Source: Watersipora subatra
Lineage: Eukaryota; Bryozoa; Gymnolaemata; Cheilostomatida; Watersiporidae
NCBI RefSeq assembly: GCF_963576615.1
Contig: NC_088711.1
Location: forward strand, 10,286,869 to 10,350,868
Reading direction: 5' to 3'
Length of the DNA: 64,000 nt
The position numbers and the translations under genes were made by a program. Each line of letters opens with the position of its first letter. The first letter of the stretch is position 1. The notes under the pieces were generated by a model, which worked only from the letters and a program-made list of their open reading frames with translations, was not told where the DNA came from and did no database searches. Below are positions 621-63,800 of the stretch, piece by piece.

Positions 621-3600
621 TCGAACAAGCCCGCCCTTGTGGTCACCTCCTACCCAGACCAGGGTGTCTTTATAGCAGTTATCGTCGAAGATAAGTTGAC
701 CGGTCACAAGTCAGCCTATGTTCCACGAGTCTCATATGGCTGTGACATTGATAGACACACTTCAGGGCATCCGTGTCAAGGTATAGCCAACATACCAGTT
801 TCCAGTCATGACATAAGATCATGTGGTGACATATTATTGTAGCGAATCATGCGTGTAGGAAATGAAAATATTTGTGAGTCATGAATATATATTAGTAATG
901 CTCCGGCTGTGCCCTTTGTGTCCCTGTTATTCAGATTTAGCTTGGCTGTAAATATCGTCGCTTGTTGCTGAGGAAGTTTTTGACTCGTTTATTGGTTATC
1001 TTTTTATTGTGTGTTTCTAATAGACCTGACATCATGTGGAAAATATAGCCCTAATTCCGGTAGATAGACCATAAAAAGTTTATTGGTACAATGGCAGTGC
1101 AATGACTGAGTGACAGCCCAAATACCACAAAATCTCTATTTGAACGCCATGGCTCTCGATTTTCCAATCCTTCTCTTATAGTGGCTTTCAAATTAAGGTG
1201 GCTTTCAAATTAAGGTGGCTTTCAAATAAAGGTGGCTTTCAAATAAAGATGGCTTTCAAATAAAGGTGGCTTTCATTTAGAGATTTTACAGTATCTCTTT
1301 CATGTAATTGAAGGCCAGATAGGTCATTTTAAAATCATCCTTCTGCCAAAACTTTCCGATTGCCTCGTCGGTTTGAACCCATATTTATGTCAATGTTACC
1401 TGCTATGGCACTTCATTCTTAGTAAGCTTTCAGTCTACTATTGTAGTTCAGTGGTACTACTACTTGCTGGCAGCCGTGATCACTGTTGCTGGCCTTTTCA
1501 TCACCTTCCTTGGACACAGATTCTTCGCATATGAACTTTTTATAATGGGATTTCTAACTGGACTGCTTTGCGGCTTTATAGGACTGCTTGCTGCTCGGGT
1601 GTCAGTCATAGGTAAGAAGTGTCTGTTTGTGTCAGTCATAGGTAGAAAGGGTCTGTTTATGTCAGTCATAGGTAAGAAGTGTCTGTTTGTGTCAGTCATA
1701 GGTAAGAAGTGTCTGTTTGTATCAGTCATAGGTAAGAAGTGTCTGTTTGTGTCAGTCATAGGTAAGAAGTGTCTGTTTGTGTCAGTCATATGTAAGAAGT
1801 GTCTGTTCGTGTCAGTCATAGGTAAGAAGTGTCTGTTTGTGTCAGTCATAGGTAAGAAGTGTCTGTTTGTGTCAGTCATAGGTTAGAAGTGTCTGTTTGT
1901 GTCAGTCATAGGTAGGAAGGGTCTGTTTATGTCAGTCATAGGTAAGAAGTGTCTGTTTGTGTCAGTCATAGGTAAGAAGTGTCTGTTTGTATCAGTGATA
2001 GGTAGGAAGTGTCTGTTTGTGTCGGTCATAGATAAGTGTCTGTTTGTGTCAGTCATAGGTAGGAAGTGTCTGTTTGTGTCAGTTATAGGTAGGAAGTGTC
2101 TGTTTGTGTCAGTGATAGATAGGAAGTGTCTGTTTGTATCGGTCATAGGTAAGAAGTGTCTGTTTGTGTCAGTCATAGGTAAGAAGTGTCTGTTTGTGTC
2201 AGTCATAGGTAGGAAGGGTCTGTTTATGTCAGTCATAGGTAAGAAGTGTCTGTTTGTGTCAGTCATAGGTAGGAAGTGTCTGTTTGTGTCAGTCATAGGT
2301 AGGAAGTGTCTGTTTTTATCGGTCATAGATAAGAAGTCTCTCTTTATGTCAGTCATAGGTAAGAAATGTCTGTTTATGTCAGTCATAGGTAAGAAGTGTC
2401 TGTTTGTGTCAGTCACAGTTAGGAAGTGTCTGTTTGTGTCAGTCATAGGTAAGAAGTGGCTGTTTGTGTCAGTCATAGGTAGGAAGTGTCTGTTTGTGTC
2501 AGTTATAGGTAGGTAGTGTCTGTTTGTTTCGGTGATAGGTAGGTAGTGTCTGTTTGTGTCAGTCATAGGTAAGAAGTGTCTGTTTGTGTCAGTCATAGGT
2601 AAGAAGTGTCTGTTTGTGTCGGTCATAGGTAGGAAGTGTCTGTTTGTATCGGTCATAGGTAAGAAGTGTCTGTTTGTATCGGTCATAGGTAAGAAGTGTC
2701 TGTCTGTGTCAGTCATAGGTAGGAAGTGTCTGTTTGTGTCAGTCATAGGTAAGAAGTGTCTGTTTGTATCGGTCATAGGTAAGAAGTGTCTGTCTGTGTC
2801 AGTCATAGGTAGGAAGTGTCTGTTTGTATAGGTCATAGGTAAGAAGTGTCTGTTTGTGTCAGTCATAGGTAAGAAGTGTCTGTTTATGTCAGTCATAGGT
2901 AAGAAGTGTCTGTTTGTGTCAGTCATATGTAGGAAGTATCTGTTTGTTTCAGTCATAGGTAGGAAGCGTCTGTTTTTATCGGTCATAGATAAGAAGTCTC
3001 TCTTTATGTCAGTCATAGGTAAGAAATGTCTGTTTATGTCAGTCATAGGTAAGAAGTGTCTGTTTGTGTCAGTCACAGGTAAGAAGTGTCTTTTTGTGTC
3101 AGTCATAGGTAAGAAGTGTCTGTTTGTGTCGGTCATAGGTAGGAAGTGTCTGTATGTATCGGTCATAGGTAAGAAGTGTCTGTTTGTGTCAGTCATAGGT
3201 AGGAAGTGTCTGTTTGTGTCAGTCATAGGTAAGAAGTGTATGTTTGTGTCAGTCATAGGTAGGAAGTGTCTGTTTGTGTCAGTCATAGGTAAGAAGTGGC
3301 TGTTTGTGTCAGTCATAGGTAGGAAGTGTCTGTTTGTGTCAGTTATAGGCAGGTAGTGTCTGTTTGTTTCGGTGATAGGTAGGTAGTGTCTGTTTGTGTC
3401 AGTCATAGGTAAGAAGTGTCTGTTTGTGTCAGTCATAGGTAGGAAGTGTCTGTTTTTATCGGTCATAGATAAGAAGTCTCTCTTTATGTCAGTCATAGGT
3501 AAGAAATGTCTGTTTATGTCAGTCATAGGTAAGAAGTCTCTGTTTGTGTCAGTCATAGGTAAGAAGTGTCTGTTTGTGTCGGTCATAGGTAGGAAGTGTC

Positions 3601-6600
3601 TGTTTGTATCGGTCATAGGTAAGAAGTTTCTGTTTGTATCGGTCATAGGTAAGAAGTGTCTGTTTGTGTCAGTCATAGGTAGGAAGTGTCTGTTTGTGTC
3701 AGTCATAGGTTAGAAGTGTACCTCTACACTTGAAGTTGCACTACCATCCCTCACTTTGTTTTACAAGGTTTGAAGTTAATTCAAACAAAATTACTTCGAT
3801 ATGATTTTTCAACCACCTAATTGTAATTGTCAGCTATGGCTAACTAAAATTTATTGTGGTAAGTTAATAACATTATTCCTCAAGTTTTCGTTCCATTGTT
3901 TATTACATGTTCATTCTTCTTTGTGAGAAAGTCATATTCTTTGCTATGTGCACGGAGTTCTTTCGATCAAGCTCGGAAAAGGCTTAGTGTGGCTGACATC
4001 GTTTTTTGTTATAAACTTAACAGGTTTGGCCGGTGGTTCCACACTAATTGGTCTAGCTTTTGGACTTTTGTGGGCTCTGCTTTGGCAGTGTGCTGGTGTG
4101 GTGCTTCTTTGTCTGATACTGCCAGCAGCCAATGGTGGATTCCTGATCGCCTCAATAATCACTTATTCTCCACTTGGTGAGTCACTTACATTATTAGCTT
4201 TAATAATACACCTATTTATCACTGAGTGTGCAAGTATTATTCACTAGCTAATCCTCCATTGAAGGTTGGAGATGACACGTTGAGTTCGCTTCAATCTTTT
4301 TTGTTTGAAAGATTCGTTATTCAACTAAATAGCTGATCAAAATGAATAATTTTTGAAGTTATTAGCTGATGACTGAAAATTTGGAGTTTTTGATTAATGA
4401 CCGCTGGTTATAGCTTTCTGGAGATAAAGATATTGTTACCTCTATTTATTGTAGCATTACTTCTTACCTTCTCCATTGTTAGTGGTAATGCTACGTCATA
4501 TATAGGAACCAGAGGTACTCGCTGCTTGACCTGTGCATAACTGTAATAGTCACTGTCACACAGTACTACCACATTTAATCATTGATGTCATCGTCATTCC
4601 ATCCAGTTCTTCGCTTGAGTAGTGTTTGAGTAGCGCCTATTGTTCGTAATAACTTATCTATACATATGTATTTGGCTTCATTTGTTTGCTTGTATGTCCT
4701 CTATAGAAACCAAGTTTGTAACAGAATGGTCTGAAGTTTTGCATGTGGTTTTCTTTGATACTCCCGTCAGTTTGACGTTGCCCCCAAACGATTTTGGGTC
4801 GTTAGGACCATGAAGATGTTTTTGTGAATGAAAATGATGTTAAGAACCATTTCGTAAAGACTCAACTAAAAAGTTGGGCCAATTCAGGGTTTAGGTCCAT
4901 GATTCTCAGCTTATTAAACTCGGGCTTTAACCGACTGAGCTGATTGGCCACCTTCCAAAGCTTCAGATTAATTGTGCCAATCAAAGGTAAAGATTACGTA
5001 TTTATATCTTTGTTTTGTTTATTTGGTTGAAAATTACTAGAATGAAAATTAAATATTCGAGTTGTATTTTTCATCCGGGTATGTCTGCTTGTAAGCATTA
5101 TGCGACCATTTATAGATGTACTAACCGAATGACCGGCGTTGCACGGGAAATAAAATAATTACCCAATGAATTCGAGTAACTTATCTCATAAGCTAGTAGA
5201 TGAAATCTTTATTAAAACAATAGCCATGTTTGGAGACATCTTAACTATCGTTGCGTTACGTAAGGCGAAACGATCAAACGAGCTAGTTGAATATCTCAAG
5301 CGCATTAAGCATGGGTATTTTAACCGAAGTAATGAATGTTTTCGCTATTATTGATTGCTAACTATTATTGATGGGCAAACTTGCCCCTGCCAGAATTGAA
5401 GGTTCTGAGATCAAATCCTAAGTAGAGCGGATTTTTTTTCTCTAAAACTTTATTGTTGTAACTGGACACATGAACAGACTAACAAACAAAAGACAAATAT
5501 TGAGATTTATATATAGATTGTTCACAACCTCATGCCAGCTACAATGTTATTCACAACCAGCTTCAGGTTGTGTCAGAAACTTCAATGTTTTATAGATAAA
5601 TAATTCTCTGTTGCAGTGAATATTAAGATGTTCGACAGCTGGGAGTTATGGCTCATAGGCGCAGCTATTATGGTTTTTACATTTCTGGCCATAGTGATCT
5701 GGAGTAAAAAGGTATCTTCGTCAGCTTAAGACCTTTTTTCTAGGTTCTGTCTATTGCTGTAGGCAAATGATCATAATTAGGAGTAACTTATGTCACTTCT
5801 GATAAATTGGTCTCACGACCTTGACTTTTTAATTGGCAGGTAAATATTGTAATCTGTTCATTCCTGGGAGCATACGCCATAATAGCTACAATATCGGTGT
5901 ACTGTGGGGCCTCCTTGCACCATATTGTAATAGAAACAGTGAGGAGAGCTTCTGTCAAAGAGTACAGTGACAGTGTCTTCTCAGCCCCCTTCAGTGTGGT
6001 TGGTGAGTTGAATATGTATGTCAAAGACCTTTTCACAGACTGATTCGATATGTTACACCACTGCAAGCTTATCTGTGAGCATAAGACATAACATTCAAGC
6101 GGTAGCTGTGCATCATATCTTAGTACATATACAAATTGTGCTTTCTGGAGATATGAGGGTCACAATTTCAGTATCATTTAATTAACTTAATCTTTCTTAA
6201 ATTTACTGCCAGATATTGTGGAACTGCGTTGCATTAGTTAAAATAAATTGTGCCTGGATGTCTGATGGAATTCTAAGAAGAAATTGAAGGCAGCATGAAA
6301 TAAATGCAGGGCAGCATCAGTGGCAGATTTTGCAATGTTCAAAAACTTCATGTATGCTTTTTCATTGACCTCTTAACAAGCAATATTGTTCTTGTACAGT
6401 GAGCACCAGCAGCAAATTTCGAGTGCCAGTAGTCTAAATATAGAGTAACAAATGGTATAAGAAAGTTTCGAAATAAAGTTGCATCCTCGAGTTACGATGT
6501 CCCTGTTATACGATTTTTTTACCTTATGCAATGGAACACGATGTTTTTTTCGTTCCCTTAATATGAAATTTTTTCTCCATACGACATCAACCAAAATTTC

Positions 6601-27900: not shown

Positions 27901-30900
27901 CTGCTAACAAAAAATTAACTTCATTACAAAAACAGCATCGTTCGAGCTTTTTGCCGAATTAGGTTGAAAAATGTTTTAAACGGGTCCGTTAAAAGTTATA
28001 GTGAAAGCGAAAATAGAAACTGATAAGCGATAAAATTTTAGTGATAAAAAATTGAAATTCAGTAAAGTAGATAAAAATACATACTGAAACTTAGCTAAGT
28101 GTGTGTGTTTAGTAAGCTAAACCTATTTGAGGTGAACTCAAAGTTTATGTTATACGTACGTCTGTCTTGAAGGTAAGAACTTTCAACGGCACGTACTGCA
28201 CATGGTACATTATAATGTTATATTTTATTGCAGATTATAACCACTAAATACAATAGAGTTACTGTAGGTAACTATAATTACTAAGGTTAACATATTATTT
28301 TGTTGCCAATTGTTAATATGTACAGCATTCCATAAAATTTTTGACGATTTTTACCGAGTGATGTTTGCGTTATATAATTACTATGGTTTCTATACCCTCT
28401 ACATACAATTTTTTCATCATACGATGCTCAACTCTAGAGCGGATCAAAATCGTATTCTGAAGGTGTACTGTAATAAAATAAAACGTAATCTTTAAAAAGT
28501 CTGCTAAGGTTTTCATTTTATTCTTGCCACAGTCAAAATCTGCACTGTTCTATTGAGAGCAGACAATTCCGTGCGTGGCCTTGCAGTGTGTCAAGTAAAA
28601 TGAGAGTTGTTCAATGCACCTGGCATAGAGCGAATGCAGCACAGAATTGACCGAAGTTTTATATTAAACTTTTTCTCCGCTTTACCAAACTCGTCACACA
28701 CAGCTTCCACAATTTCATCCGGTGTAAGTTCGGAATCACCGATCTACAAAAGACCAAATTCTCTTTCACCTCAATCAACATAACATTACCAATACAAATA
28801 TAAGTCCTAGTAGTATTAGGACATAGTAGTACTAGTAGGTTATAGTAATAGTAGGTCATAGTAATAGTAAGTCATAGTAATAGTAGGTCATAGTAAGAGT
28901 AGGTCATAGTAATAGCAGGTCATAGTAATCGTATGTGCTAGTAATATCAAGTCATAGTAATAGTAGGTCACAGTAATAGTAGGTCATAGTTATAGTAGGC
29001 CATAGTAATAATAGGTCATAATAATAGTAGGTTATAGTAATAGTAGGTCATAGTAATAGTAGGTTATAGTAATAGTAGGTCATAGTAATAGAAAATGAAA
29101 CTAACAACAGAATTAGTCCAAAGGTTGTAATCAAAATGCTGTAAAACCTCTATTTGAATGCCATGGCGCTCTATTTTTCTACTCTTCCCTATAGTGGCCT
29201 TTAATAATTATAGGTGACATTCAAATAGAGGGTGGCGCTGAAATTTTCAAATAGCTTGTCACAATTTTGGGAAGATAAATCTAACCCTTTTACAAGTGAA
29301 GCGAATGTCACCTATATTTTTTCACTCTCCTTCCGGCGGAGCGACATTAATCCTTTTAAATGCAGGAAATCTGGTAACTTACCTACAACTTGTCGTAGAT
29401 CTCTATATGCACATACATTGGGAAGCTAAGAAATAACTCTACCAGTTGATATCTATTGCTTACAATTAGCCTGCGATGATATTATAGCCTGCGTCCTGCG
29501 TTGCAATTTGTCGGAGCTATCAATTTTTATTTTATTTTAAATTTAAAGGCATAGGTTTGTTTCATAACTATATTTACCAATGCTGCATAAAGGCTCATTG
29601 CACTCATTGCTATGTTTGCAACAGTTGGCAGCCACAACTGGCTTTTTATGTGCAATAGAAGAGGGAGTTAAGAGCGTCGATCCACTGTAAGCCGAGTTTA
29701 GATAACTGCAATGATGCTATCAAATAATATGCTACAAATCTGCAAATTTATAAGTTATATAACAATAAGCAATCAAACGCTACAATATACATTTAAGAAA
29801 AAGTGACATAAACAAACGATGTTTATAATATTTTTGAAACAAAAACTGAAATTTTTGAAACAAAAATATTTGCATTGTTTGCTCGGTCAGTTGCTTTATG
29901 ATCGTTACTTTCGTTTGAAACCATTTCATCTTTTCTGGCTGTTCAATACCTTCCACAGTATCTTTTGACCTCAACTCTTCTTCTGCACTACTGAACTAGT
30001 CGATATTAGCGTCCAAACAATTTTTGTAGCAGAGCAAAACTTTTATGCGTTGCTTTTCATACAAATAATGAGAAACCTTTAGCCGCATGCACGCTTAGCA
30101 CAAATTTTAGCTTGAAATAGTAGTATAGATTCCATCATTGTTGCTCATCGTTGTCCACATACGTCAAAGTTTCAAGACCACGTTAAACAAGGCACTACTA
30201 TTAGTCTGATACAGTAATTGATTATTTCTATGGTGCTGCTTTTAAAGTTTTAACGAAAAAACCAAAAAGCTTTGGGGTTAGAAAACGGACTTCGATATGA
30301 ACAGAGACAACGAAAGAATTGTTATTGAATTTATTGTTATTAATGCAACCGAGTCATTATTAGTAAGATTTGTAGACACTTTTCTACTGATCACTTGCTA
30401 TTATGGGTTCGTAAAGATCTAGGAATGTCAGAATGGCGGTCAAATAGAGGTGGCGTTCAATTAAAGGGTGGCGTTTATTTTTCAACCCTTCTCTTAGAAT
30501 GTCAGTCAAATAGGGGTAGCTTTCAAACAAAGGTGTTGTTCAAATATAGGTTTTACAGCAATATCCAAGAACATAAACTGATACCACTATAAAGTGAAGA
30601 GGGTGTACTACACTTACCAGTAGGTGTGGACAGAATCTAGCTTCAGTGTATATTATATTATCAGCAGCGATGTCTTCTGCAAACTCTGCAGCAAGTTGTC
30701 GAACTGCATCTAAACACCCTCTACATAACATATTCGCCTTGACATCACAAATTATGTACAATAACATATAATAAGATAGGAAAATATTGAGCTTGTAGCA
30801 CTAAGAAAGTTTTAGCTTCCACAGCTTCAGTACTTTGCAGGATAAAAATATTCATTAAAAGTCAAAGAAAATAGATAAAAGTAAAAAAAACTAGAAGACA

Positions 30901-59800: not shown

Positions 59801-60893
59801 CCAATCTACGGCGTCTTTTCGTTTTTGAGCTTTTAAGAGCTTGTAATCACATTTCCACATATTTTGCACCAACAACACAACAGTGTAAGACATGGTGAAT
59901 CTTTTGATACCAAATAACTGTAATGTGAATTTTGCTGCAAGTCAACCTTTAAGGTACTATTTCTTATATAAAACAACTAAATACAAATTGATCCGTTACT
60001 ATACTATGAAAAACCCAACATTAAACAAGATATTATGGAGGAAAAACGTTCTTTAGTTGTTGTAATTTAGTGCCTACGCTGAAAAAATGTAACAAGTACG
60101 TAGAAAAACTTTGAATTTAACCTAAATTAATTTAGCTCACTAAACACACACTTGAACCTAAGTTTCAATCTTTCACTAAACTCACTCTAAGTTTGTCGTC
60201 TAAATTTTCTATTGTTTCCGGTATTGCGCCACTAGCGAAAAATATAAGGTAAGGCGACTGCCTAGCTAGTAGGCTGCTCATTACTCTGTAATGATGAGTT
60301 ATAAAAACCAACTCCTGGACAACGCATACCATCGCTCAGGGTCATACATACTTAGACCACATATAACGAGTGGCCAGCTCGAATGCTCGTATCTCAAGGA
60401 ATAAATTTGCTCAAAAGTCAGCTCATATCTCAAGTTTCTCGCAAGGTGGGCACTCGTATGTAGAGGTCTGACTGTAGTAGGTCATAATAATAGTAGGTCA
60501 TAATAATAGTAGGTCATAATAATAGTAGGTCATAATAATAGTAGGTCATGGTATTAGTAGGTCATAGTAATAGTAGGTCATAATAATATTAGGTTATAGT
60601 AGTATTAGGTTATAGTATAGTAGGTCACAGTAATAGTAGGTCACAGTAATATTAGGTCACAGTAATATTAGGTAGCAGTAATAAAATATGAAACTACAAA
60701 CAGATTCAGTCTTAAAATTGTAATCTAATTAATATTCAAGAACATAAACTGATACCAGTATGAAGTGAAGAGGGTGTATGATAAACTTGCCAGTAGATGT
60801 GGACAGAATCTAGCTTCAGTGTATATTATATTATCAGCAGCCATGTCTTCTGCAAACTCTGCAGCAAGTTGTCGAACTGCATCCAAACACCCC
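53856..60893 (-). CDS. adenosine deaminase, copy B (exons 4-10; 5' exons beyond window)
   Basis: Exons on the minus strand are 60791-60893, 58477-58600, 58178-58311, 55990-56061, 55691-55860, 54907-55036 and 53856-53960. Each internal exon has exactly the length of its ADA-A counterpart (103, 124, 134, 72, 170, 130). It keeps EARFCPHLL, LILCCMRSMP, VVGIDLAGDE, YRTVHAGENGSA, ANRIGHGYRVL and SFSLNTDDPV, so the zinc and catalytic residues seen in these exons are present and the gene looks functional. Its own last exon (ILDGAENAFLLPHEKSEL ... GQHCHQ stop) differs from copy A. Exon 4 ends in a GC donor (CTG|gcaagt). Exons 1-3 are expected to the right: intron 3 of copy A is 3.0 kb and only 3.1 kb of window remains. 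Introns carry piggyBac-like, family X and Tigger-like insertions. Confidence 0.92.
56120..56816. mobile_element. piggyBac-like MITE in ADA-B intron 6
   Basis: Flanked by TTAA on both sides (56116-56119 and 56817-56820). The ends are CCCTTTGACCGGG and, reversed, CCCTTTGACAGGGG. 697 bp, no transposase. TTAA target and CCC ends are the piggyBac signature. Confidence 0.87.
56954..57669 (-). mobile_element. MITE family X, copy X6
   Basis: It starts near CAGTAGACCCCTGCATAA (a second, similar start CAGTGGAACCCGCCATCGAG lies 26 bp in) and ends ATCCTTG/CAGCGCATCC at 57669 followed by TA. It lies in ADA-B intron 5, reverse orientation. Confidence 0.68.
57859..57982. mobile_element. MITE, CTGTAAAACCTCTA family, best-preserved copy
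   Basis: TA on both sides (57857-57858 and 57983-57984). The ends are CTGTAAAACCTCTA and, reversed, CCGTAAAACCTCTATTTGAA. 124 bp, with an internal near-palindrome around GCCACTCTAGGAGAAGGGTC. It lies in ADA-B intron 5. Confidence 0.78.
58998..60474. mobile_element. Tigger/pogo-like TA-targeted element, 1477 bp, non-autonomous
   Basis: The ends are CAGTCATACCTCTACATACG and, reversed, CAGTCAGACCTCTACATACG, flanked by TA (58996-58997 and 60475-60476). Its interior shares blocks with family X (TTAGCTCACTAAACACACAC). It contains palindromic element P2. Confidence 0.82.
59069..59953. mobile_element. palindromic element P2 (relative of P1)
   Basis: It begins AAAGGTTGACTTGCAACAAA and ends with the reverse complement, 885 bp. 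It lacks the Mutator-like insertion found in P1 and so provides its empty site. Confidence 0.78.
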
Positions 60894-63800
60894 CTACAAT
60901 AACATAGTCGCCTTGACATTACAAATGTACAATAACATATTGAAGGTTCGCTTTTAAAACCAGATAGTTGTGAAAATGATAGCATAGAATGGTTCTACAC
61001 AACTAGACAGTTTGGTATATCATAGAGTGTACTTCTTAAAGAATAGTCTATAAATAAGCATAGTACTTCAAATAATAAAGTTACCCTACGATTGATCGAA
61101 GGCGAAAAACACATCTAATGTCAAGGAATCTAAACTAATTTTCCAAAGTTATGCAAATCACAGCTGTGTGCACCTGTGCATAATCGATAATTCTCATAAG
61201 GTCATAATTGGGATAACTGATTACAAAAGGCAATTGTAAAACATTTTCGTTTTTCAAAGACAAAAACAATGAAATCTGAAGAGAATTTTCAAACCATGAT
61301 GCATCATAATAAGGTTTCACTGGCTTGCTAGCAGTGTTGGCATTTGTAAATTAGGAGCTATCGAGTATTAATGATACACAATGGATATTTAATATGCTGA
61401 TAATGCAGCATATCGCTCAGGAGCATTCATGTGTGTGTAGCTACAGCGGAGGTCTACGCTATCAGTAGCATAATGATTCATGCATGTAGCTACAGCCGAG
61501 GTCGACGCTATGATGCATTCAGTCAGTGTGGGCCGAAAGAACATGAGTGGGACACATTAACGATTTTTCTAAAAACCATATAAATGTTGAGCACATGACG
61601 ATAGCATCGGTCAACGCTGTTGAACTTTAAAGAATACACAATTCTACTCACTAGTTGAAATTACACCATCCGCTGCTAAAGATCAGAGACAATTGGAGTG
61701 CCATATATGGCTGCGCTATTTAAAATATGACTACATCTCACGATTTTATGCCAAGCAGTTGAGAAACTACTCTCAAGTACTTGTATTATGCTGTACCCCA
61801 GTCTTCTCCATGGAAAGTGAATGTTTGTCTCACCTTACAATATAATGAACGAAAAACTTTTGAAGTAAAATAACTTCAGCTTGACTCACACCTGACCTTA
61901 AAAGGTTTGTTTCACATTCCAATATTATCAACTCTTGTAAAACTTGATAGTCCTTAACAGGGTCAGAGAGGTGAAAGTAATGATCAAGGGATTATGAGAG
62001 AGTGAGTGAAGTACAAGAGAAAATTAAGCTAAATGATAGCGAAGCTGAGAAGATCAGGTGATTGCAAATCGGTAGAAGGTAACAACAGTCATTAAGCTAC
62101 GCAGGTCGGAGGCTTTGGCTGACTGGATGCACTTTCTATGCACTCAATGATAAATATGCTGCCAAACAATAAGGCAGAAGTAAAACTTTAGTGATAACAG
62201 GCAAAGCCTATGTTGAAAATGGAGAGCTGCTGAAGTGAAAATCTGATAAGGCCGCACTGGGCGGGTGTCATAACCCAGACAAGAAGATGATTAGAAAGTA
62301 GAAAAAAAGGAAGAGGCCTTAATAGGAAAAGCGTGATTGAAATTCCCCAAGAACTAAGGCAGCTAGCCTGCAGGGAATATCTTTAGCACATGTTTAATGA
62401 TGGTCACGTAATGAGTGAAGCTACATTGTCATCAACAGAAGACTTTGATGAGTCATTGTAGTCAAAGGTGAAAGGCTGAATAAAAAAGAACAGCATAGGT
62501 TGTGGTAAGCTTAGTTGAGTCATAAACAATCAAATCTTGATTTTAGTTAAACAATTTTTAATTAAAAAAATACCATTTTTGTTTAATGTTTTTAATTGCT
62601 ATAAGTGAAATTGCGGGAAAATGGAATTTAATAACTTAAACAAACGATATTACATGATTTATTATTAAAAACCAAATTTTCCCTAATTTTTCTCTTACGC
62701 TTTATTGACGTTGTGTATATGCTATGCAAGCATTCAAGTGTGGGATTGTCTCAAAATTTATTGCAATACTGGTTGGCTGCCAAATCTTTATTTTTAAAAC
62801 AGGAAGTACTAAAGATCTCTCTTGACTTCTGTTATAGCAACATCAGTTCAACAGAACAAGCAATGATCACAAGTTTCAGATATTGAATTTACATTAAAGT
62901 GATCAGGGAAGGACAATGTTTGTTATAGACATGAGGGAAGGTAAAGATAGAGAGGAGAAACGAAAAGGAGGAATAGATAAAGAGAGTGAGATAGAAAGAA
63001 TAGGCGGAGAGGAATGAAGAGAGGGGAATAGAGGCAAAAGGGAGGAAAATAGGTACCAATGGTAGGGCAGGGAAAAAAGAAGAGAGAAAATTGTTTGCTT
63101 AATAAAAATGAATACACTTGCTATACGGCTCGGCGTACGAGTCGAGGTCTAAAGTTTGGTTTAAAAATCCTGGTTTTACATGTACCAGCCATATAGTCCC
63201 GATTCTCTAGCTCAAAATCATTTAATCGCTAATAGTTCAATAGGCATCAGAGGCGTGTGATGCATAGCTGAAAATGTGGCATTCAAAAACGCCATTAGCA
63301 AAATGCCGATGCTTTTGTGCCGCCAGCAATGCGTACAACTAAAAAAAGAACAACTGTACAACAACTAAAAAAGGAACGAGAGCCGACAGTTCTAGTGAAG
63401 ATTACAAAGCACGAAAAACAATACTTGACCACCCTATCAGCTTGCCTCACCAATAGAATGAAATTGCCACCTTTAATAATTATGTAAGTTTTCAACAGAA
63501 AAGCCATGCCGCAAATCGTGATTCATGCACAAGAAAAAGGATGGATAGACGATAGTGGATGTGTGAAATGGATTACCAAAGTGTGGGTATGTAGGCAGTT
63601 ACAACGAAAAAAAGTATTAAATTTGAAAAAACTACAGCATTCCAGAAGAGAATCCTAGTGATGACAATTTGAATTGTAAAGAATGAGACTTCGAGTTCGA
63701 TCCATCTCATGTTGAGTAAGATTACTAGTATTTCACTATTTTACAATAACTCCCTATATGTCATATCATTAATTTTGATTTACGATGGTTTTTTGAAGTT

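Follow-up and report, generated by a model that had tools for sequence, protein, structure and literature searches.

The window analysed here is a stretch of 64,000 nucleotides from the bryozoan Watersipora subatra (contig NC_088711.1, positions 10,286,869 to 10,350,868 of the forward strand). Its first part holds several plus-strand exons of a gene resembling TM7SF3, and one intron of this gene opens with a minisatellite of 71 units of 30 bp, every unit of which copies the 5' splice junction of the preceding exon. This exon spans 1447-1611, ends in ...RVSVI G| and shows GTGTCAGTCATAG|GT at the junction. It is followed by an intron of 2412 nt (1612-4023), of which ~2.1 kb are array, and by an exon at 4024-4176 with the donor TTG|GTGAGT. 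Joined in phase at G|GT (by eye), the two exons match the Pfam family PF13886 (TM7S3_TM198) with an E-value of 7.9e-9, above the family cut-off. A further exon at 5840-6002 belongs to the same domain, with a profile match at 5837-5974 of 24.5 bits that lies under the cut-off; its edges and those of the exon at 4024-4176 were set by eye. On the 5' side, an open frame ending in ...GHPCQ marks a likely preceding coding exon at 613-780 (start uncertain), whose donor AAG|GTATAG is in phase 1; read by eye across to TTCAGTGG at 1447, its frame continues as ...CQVQWYYYLL.

The original prediction named the host gene TM7SF3. The domain match agrees with this, and we take PGGCNLEFNFENDPNI to resemble TM7SF3; judging from the sequence, an identity as TM7SF3 rather than TMEM198 is likely, though not proven. 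The label "intron 2", given to the intron by the same prediction, is not supported, as the 10 kb 5' of the window (L009) contain frames that resemble earlier exons. Two upstream candidate exons there, with the look of a signal peptide and an ectodomain, yielded nothing better than an E-value of 0.09 against Pfam. A title in the reference list of PMC12116422 states that TM7SF3 controls TEAD1 splicing; it did not enter our reading of the array. A relative with PF13886 on contig C1 of the same genome (L011) is too distant for showing an array-free version of the junction. The intron preceding the exon at 1447 carries a 17-bp minisatellite of its own (GTGGCTTTCAAATAAAG, 1181-1275), and a similar unit is found at 30434-30475.

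Tandem Repeats Finder (TRF) delimited the array to 1599-3719 on the plus strand (period 30, 70.8 copies, 90% matches, score 3360), and a unit-by-unit cut gave 71 units, so that the approximately 70-fold donor minisatellite predicted at 1599..3718 is real. As the prediction had also proposed, the first copy is the genuine junction: unit 1 is identical to the consensus and carries the exon/intron boundary ATAG|GTAAGA at 1611|1612, whose frame into the exon at 4024 was followed by eye. Unit 15 (start 2019) is 3 bp shorter than the others, i.e. 27 bp, while the incomplete unit 71 (start 3696) matches over ~24 bp and then passes into unique sequence, which continues for ~304 nt up to the acceptor at 4023/4024. 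The donor string reads TAGGTAAGA in 36 units, TAGGTAGGA in 19 and TAGGTAGGT in 3, with other strings in the remaining 13. A GT is present in 64/71 units, GGTAAG in 37/71 and GGTAGG in 22/71; taken together, 59/71 units hold one of the two hexamers, which bears out the statement that most of them do and leaves a donor-like site, as judged by sequence only, in most of the array. The 71 units fall into 31 different types, and multi-unit blocks recur, with types 13-14-2 at units 25-27 and again at 47-49, and types 13-14-28 at 63-65. Across the 784-Mb genome (239 contigs), the unit gave 63 matches at up to 3 mismatches, every one of them inside this array, and an origin as a dispersed repeat was rejected on this basis. 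A 25-base piece of the unit had no exact match among viral contigs. A special RNA structure was likewise rejected: the 300 nt from 1572 fold with a z-score of -1.41, and 20/200 shuffled sequences fold as well or better.

Read in the frame of the exon, the unit translates as VSVIGKKCLF. The array contains seven in-frame stops (1884, 2514, 2544, 2829, 3354, 3384 and 3711), the first of which is a TAG in unit 10 (1884-1886, plus strand; open reading frames and unit cut). Donors 1-10 hold the frame and would add 0 to 90 residues with no frame shift, while donors 11-71 would bring in the TAG of unit 10 as a premature stop. The description of the repeats as in-frame donor copies therefore applies to units 1-10 and fails for units 11-71. 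Across the 69 full-length units preceding the last, we found no extra conservation of the donor, with 37/414 non-consensus cells in the donor hexamer versus 83/1656 elsewhere, and 7 distinct derived alleles at the 6 hexamer positions versus 23 at the other 24. Selection on the donors inside the array was thus rejected, since diversity at donor positions is no lower. The variation at the donor consists mainly of A17G (27/70 units), which barely shifts the computed pairing with U1, from -9.7 to -9.4 kcal/mol (5' end of U1 assumed).

Human CBS carries a 31-bp variable number tandem repeat (VNTR), c.1444_1467+7(16_21), of 16-21 copies at exon 13/intron 13, whose unit, by its name, comprises the last 24 exon nt and the first 7 intron nt (PMC2630376). 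The array described here shares with it tandem units of ~30 bp that span exon end and donor (PMC2630376, PMC1395315, PMC5188458); in addition, its unit 1 is the real junction and the donor sequence is kept in most units. Unlike CBS, with its 16-21 copies and a unit that is not a multiple of 3, it has 71 copies of a unit that is a multiple of 3, as seen in one assembly; for CBS, copy-number variation between people is documented. More than one donor within the CBS repeats is reported to be used in mRNA. In the polyubiquitin gene UBC, dual-specific AGGT splice sites stand in tandem and are spliced stochastically; each unit there is a coding monomer, and the intron length is a multiple of the unit (PMC10809524). 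Tandem AGGT is found here as well, in 62/71 units, but the acceptor lies outside the array (~304 nt past it), only ~13 exon nt are involved, and the intron of 2412 nt is neither contained in the repeat nor a multiple of its unit length. Short tandem AGGT copies within an intron also recall the gain of introns through AGGT duplication (Rogers model; fission yeast, ATP2A1), including fission-yeast genes in which introns span 24-bp AGGT repeats (PMC4974935). There, a new intron arises in an exon, whereas here an existing intron was lengthened, and the duplicated segment does not contain both splice sites, as the acceptor is outside the array. The 38-bp VNTR in TERT intron 6 is an intronic minisatellite tied to splicing too, although it lies >1 kb off the exon junctions and is described in terms of RNA pairing with no copied donors (PMC3948165, PMC11830802). 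Beyond CBS, UBC and AGGT intron gain, we saw no other junction-born donor arrays in the literature excerpts, which is no proof of their absence.

Further arrays of this type exist in the same genome. The pattern AGGTRAG x3 gave eight plus-strand arrays over the opening 2.14 Mb of contig C1, to which CAGGTRAGT x3 added two and TAGGTAAG x3 another eight, all among the matches listed; these 18 donor arrays are the first along C1 among those matches and not a random sample. The array start was reached in 17/18 cases, the exception being L055. Reading the flanks by hand, we found that 6/18 start at the 5' splice junction of an exon, and five of these six exons have homology by Pfam or by phmmer against PDB. 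They comprise exons of CC2D2A (L040, unit 22 bp, Pfam 1.5e-6), a MAM domain (L041, 36 bp, Pfam 2.5e-10), an mGluR (L042, 33 bp, PDB phmmer 1e-9, with Pfam 7tm_3 at merely 0.063), Fy-3/FERRY3 (L052, minus strand, 25 bp, three donors, Pfam 1.6e-8) and the sulfotransferase family Sulfotransfer_2 (L053, 38 bp, Pfam 5e-4, slightly under the family score cut-off). The sixth, L044 (minus strand, 34 bp), follows an exon with an open frame and no match in Pfam or PDB. In four of the junction arrays the Pfam match ends no more than 1 residue from the junction, and the mGluR match ends 11 residues short of it. Like the TM7SF3-like array, all six have the 5' junction as unit 1 and repeat the exon tail. 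By an automatic rule, a tail of 10-25 nt recurs in the units of 6/7 junction arrays including the TM7SF3-like one; the rule missed the MAM array, where an alignment matches 10 of the last 11 exon nt to unit 2. In the printed frames of the six other arrays, in-frame stops appear no later than the second intronic unit.

Among the remaining arrays, L038 lies ~320 bp into an intron, downstream of an exon that matches DUF4457 weakly (0.0016), and L048 in the intron following a PI-PLC exon (1.2e-15). Judged by its length (3.28 kb / 28), the array from C1:3480598 to ~3483878 (minus strand, 5' end in L045) holds at least ~117 copies of a unit whose CAG|GTAAGT donor is perfect; no exon was recognised at its start, and it is apparently off-junction. 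L055, a 23-bp TAGGTAAGGGGAATTATTGATAT array on the minus strand, runs from C1:24105696 to past 24109000 and has >140 copies by length. In L051 (minus strand, 585-780), units of 36 bp carry a pyrimidine-rich run ahead of TAG|GTAAGT, e.g. CCTTGACCTCTCCCTAGGTAAGT, so that each unit resembles a complete recursive splice site.

To set these flanks against a background, we used 22 stretches of 10 kb chosen regardless of repeats, including two upstream of the window, which contained 26 arrays with a period of 15-70 and three or more copies, giving 51 flanks. A uniform rule took the longest frame into each array and accepted Pfam matches at E<=0.01. In the control, 27/51 flanks had an open frame of at least 30 residues into the array and none had a Pfam match at this threshold, whereas for 17 donor arrays, with their starts placed by eye, the rule found 12 such frames in the 5' flanks and three Pfam matches (3/17 versus 0/51, Fisher p 0.014).

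The edges of the TM7SF3-like array bear on its origin. Its left edge lies 13 nt within the exon (flank CTCGG|GTGTCAG), in agreement with growth out of the junction itself, and the right end breaks off past GTGT (GTGT|ACCTCT). Both outer edges share a 24-bp core, GTGTCAGTCATAGGTNAGAAGTGT, with GTGT at its start and end and the junction in its middle; the rest of the 30-bp unit reads CTGTTT. The prediction that the array arose from the junction is supported by this arrangement. We propose that one exon of the TM7SF3-like gene underwent a tandem duplication across its 5' splice junction, and that the duplicated stretch, bounded by GTGT at both ends, would have comprised the last 13 exon nt and about the first 11 intron nt, with CTGTTT as a spacer. 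Later unequal copying, multi-unit blocks included, could then have extended the array into the intron up to 71 units. The spliceosome could take the donor of unit 1, or one of units 2-10 with ten more residues for each step, and discard the rest as intron. The array would be tolerated because its first copy remains a real donor. Most likely, unit 1 serves as the main donor and the remainder leaves with the intron, and the array is probably selectively neutral. Taken together, a duplication born at the junction, followed by tolerated growth, is the reading we consider likely, with the array as one member of a recurring class in a minisatellite-rich genome. The anatomy, the frame, the single genomic place and the like arrays at six other exon ends were observed directly; the birth event, the order and direction of change, the role of unit 1 as main donor and neutrality are inferred.

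Some of our data weigh against this reading. In 11 further donor arrays (L036, L037, L038, L039, L043, L045, L048, L049, L050, L051 and L054), we recognised no exon where the first unit begins. The uniform rule recovered only 3/6 of the junction arrays called by hand, choosing the wrong frame for CC2D2A and finding no Pfam match at 0.01 for mGluR and L044; donor flanks also received more hand work, and the hand reading of flanks is more generous than the rule. Moreover, among 41 arrays (period 8-100, at least 60 bp) in 284 kb sampled, GGTRAG occurs in the consensus of the TM7SF3-like one only (1/41), and donor arrays are therefore a small fraction of minisatellites. Finally, in the mGluR and L044 arrays the first donor pairs less well with U1 than later ones do, and therefore the choice of the first donor cannot depend on strength alone. 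The early stops in the six other arrays lead to a similar demand: those genes would need a preference for the first donor that is independent of strength.

Alternatively, the donors might truly compete, with a spread of units used and copy number tuning the output of the gene, which we regard as unlikely. Units 2-10 would then lengthen the stretch between membrane segments by 10-90 residues of VSVIGKKCLF repeats, and units 11 onward would carry the stop of unit 10 into the transcript and lead to mRNA decay. Such competition would fit the first donors, as 7/10 share the nine-base donor string of unit 1, whose computed U1 pairing of -9.7 kcal/mol beats that of 6/7 other donor candidates scored in this gene (with exon ends set by eye and the U1 end assumed). 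The human CBS VNTR offers an analogy, since higher unit number goes with lower enzyme activity (PMC5188458). Competition is harder to reconcile with a donor that is not conserved within units and with comparable arrays at six other exons. A related idea, that each AG|GT acts as both acceptor and donor and splicing proceeds in whole-unit steps to the same spliced product, draws on the AGGT count given above and on UBC, which is spliced via AGGT at every repeat; introns spliced through such sites are also reported to be enriched in tandem-repeat genes (PMC10809524). As the unit lacks a strong pyrimidine tract or branch site (by eye) and adjacent sites are just 30 nt apart, we consider this very improbable. 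An assembly artefact, in which the array was collapsed, inflated or misplaced, has next to no probability in our view: assembling long tandem arrays is difficult, but the exon frame resumes exactly beyond this one, its units are diverse and it occupies a single genomic place.

That 5' splice sites might be preferred birthplaces of minisatellites, e.g. via R-loops or U1-bound RNA, depends on the motif used for comparison. Relative to reversed motifs, donor patterns are in clear excess (AGGTRAG x3 12981 matches versus 2225; CAGGTRAGT x3 660 versus 190; TAGGTAAG x3 3274 versus 314 for GAATGGAT), while the single AGGTRAG motif and its reversal are nearly equally frequent in 282 kb (54 and 57). Counted by eye among the matches listed, distinct arrays also favour the donor over the reversed motif (8 in 24.1 Mb versus 4 in 116 Mb, p 0.0002). 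Against the permuted motif GATAGTGA this excess is lost, with 2705 matches for its x3 pattern, 3721 for the reversal of that pattern, and 8 distinct arrays in 24.1 Mb for the donor versus 9 in 35.9 Mb for the permuted motif (p 0.62). A genome-wide enrichment of donors in minisatellites was thus not accepted. Random birth alone predicts, as a rough estimate, 300-1000 arrays over 5' junctions, assuming 100,000 to 200,000 introns. We therefore hold a preferred birthplace to be quite unlikely; random birth plus tolerance is enough in a minisatellite-rich genome.

Elsewhere in the window, two 16-bp minisatellites (28827-29091 and 60475-60673) consist of one unit in rotation. The former lies ~1.5 kb before, and the latter close beside, similar open reading frames on the minus strand (30540-30800 and 60725-60994), which we take to be adenosine-deaminase-like; perhaps arrays and frames form a duplicated segment. 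Between ~36700 and 46300, open frames presumably represent retroelement pieces.

The claim that no such case had been described does not stand, given the human CBS VNTR, UBC and the six further junction-born arrays of this genome. The TM7SF3-like array belongs, as a large member, to the CBS kind, which is already known, and differs from the known cases in its copy number, in a frame that stays open through ten units and in its recurrence within one genome. This recurrence at exon ends is more interesting than the single array. How a choice is made among equal 5' splice sites is an old question, usually addressed with built constructs that contain few sites. W. subatra offers a natural series in one genome: seven genes so far carry between three and 71 near-identical donors with fixed spacing, from FERRY3 (three donors) to the TM7SF3-like gene (71 units), and the exon's own junction comes first in all seven. 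Exclusive use of the first donor would mean that exon-side position outweighs donor number and strength; if several are used, copy number would be a fast-changing control of expression. Extended to hundreds of genes, introns opening with donor arrays of their own junction would act as working multi-donor fields and copy number as a fast-mutating dial of output, set between in-frame and stop-containing transcripts. We regard this extension as speculative and rather unlikely; in it, the TM7SF3-like gene would stand out as the longest of the junction cases studied and as the one in which the unit lengthens the reading frame as well. Our analysis suggests that minisatellites can arise repeatedly over splice junctions, in genes that retain open exon frames.

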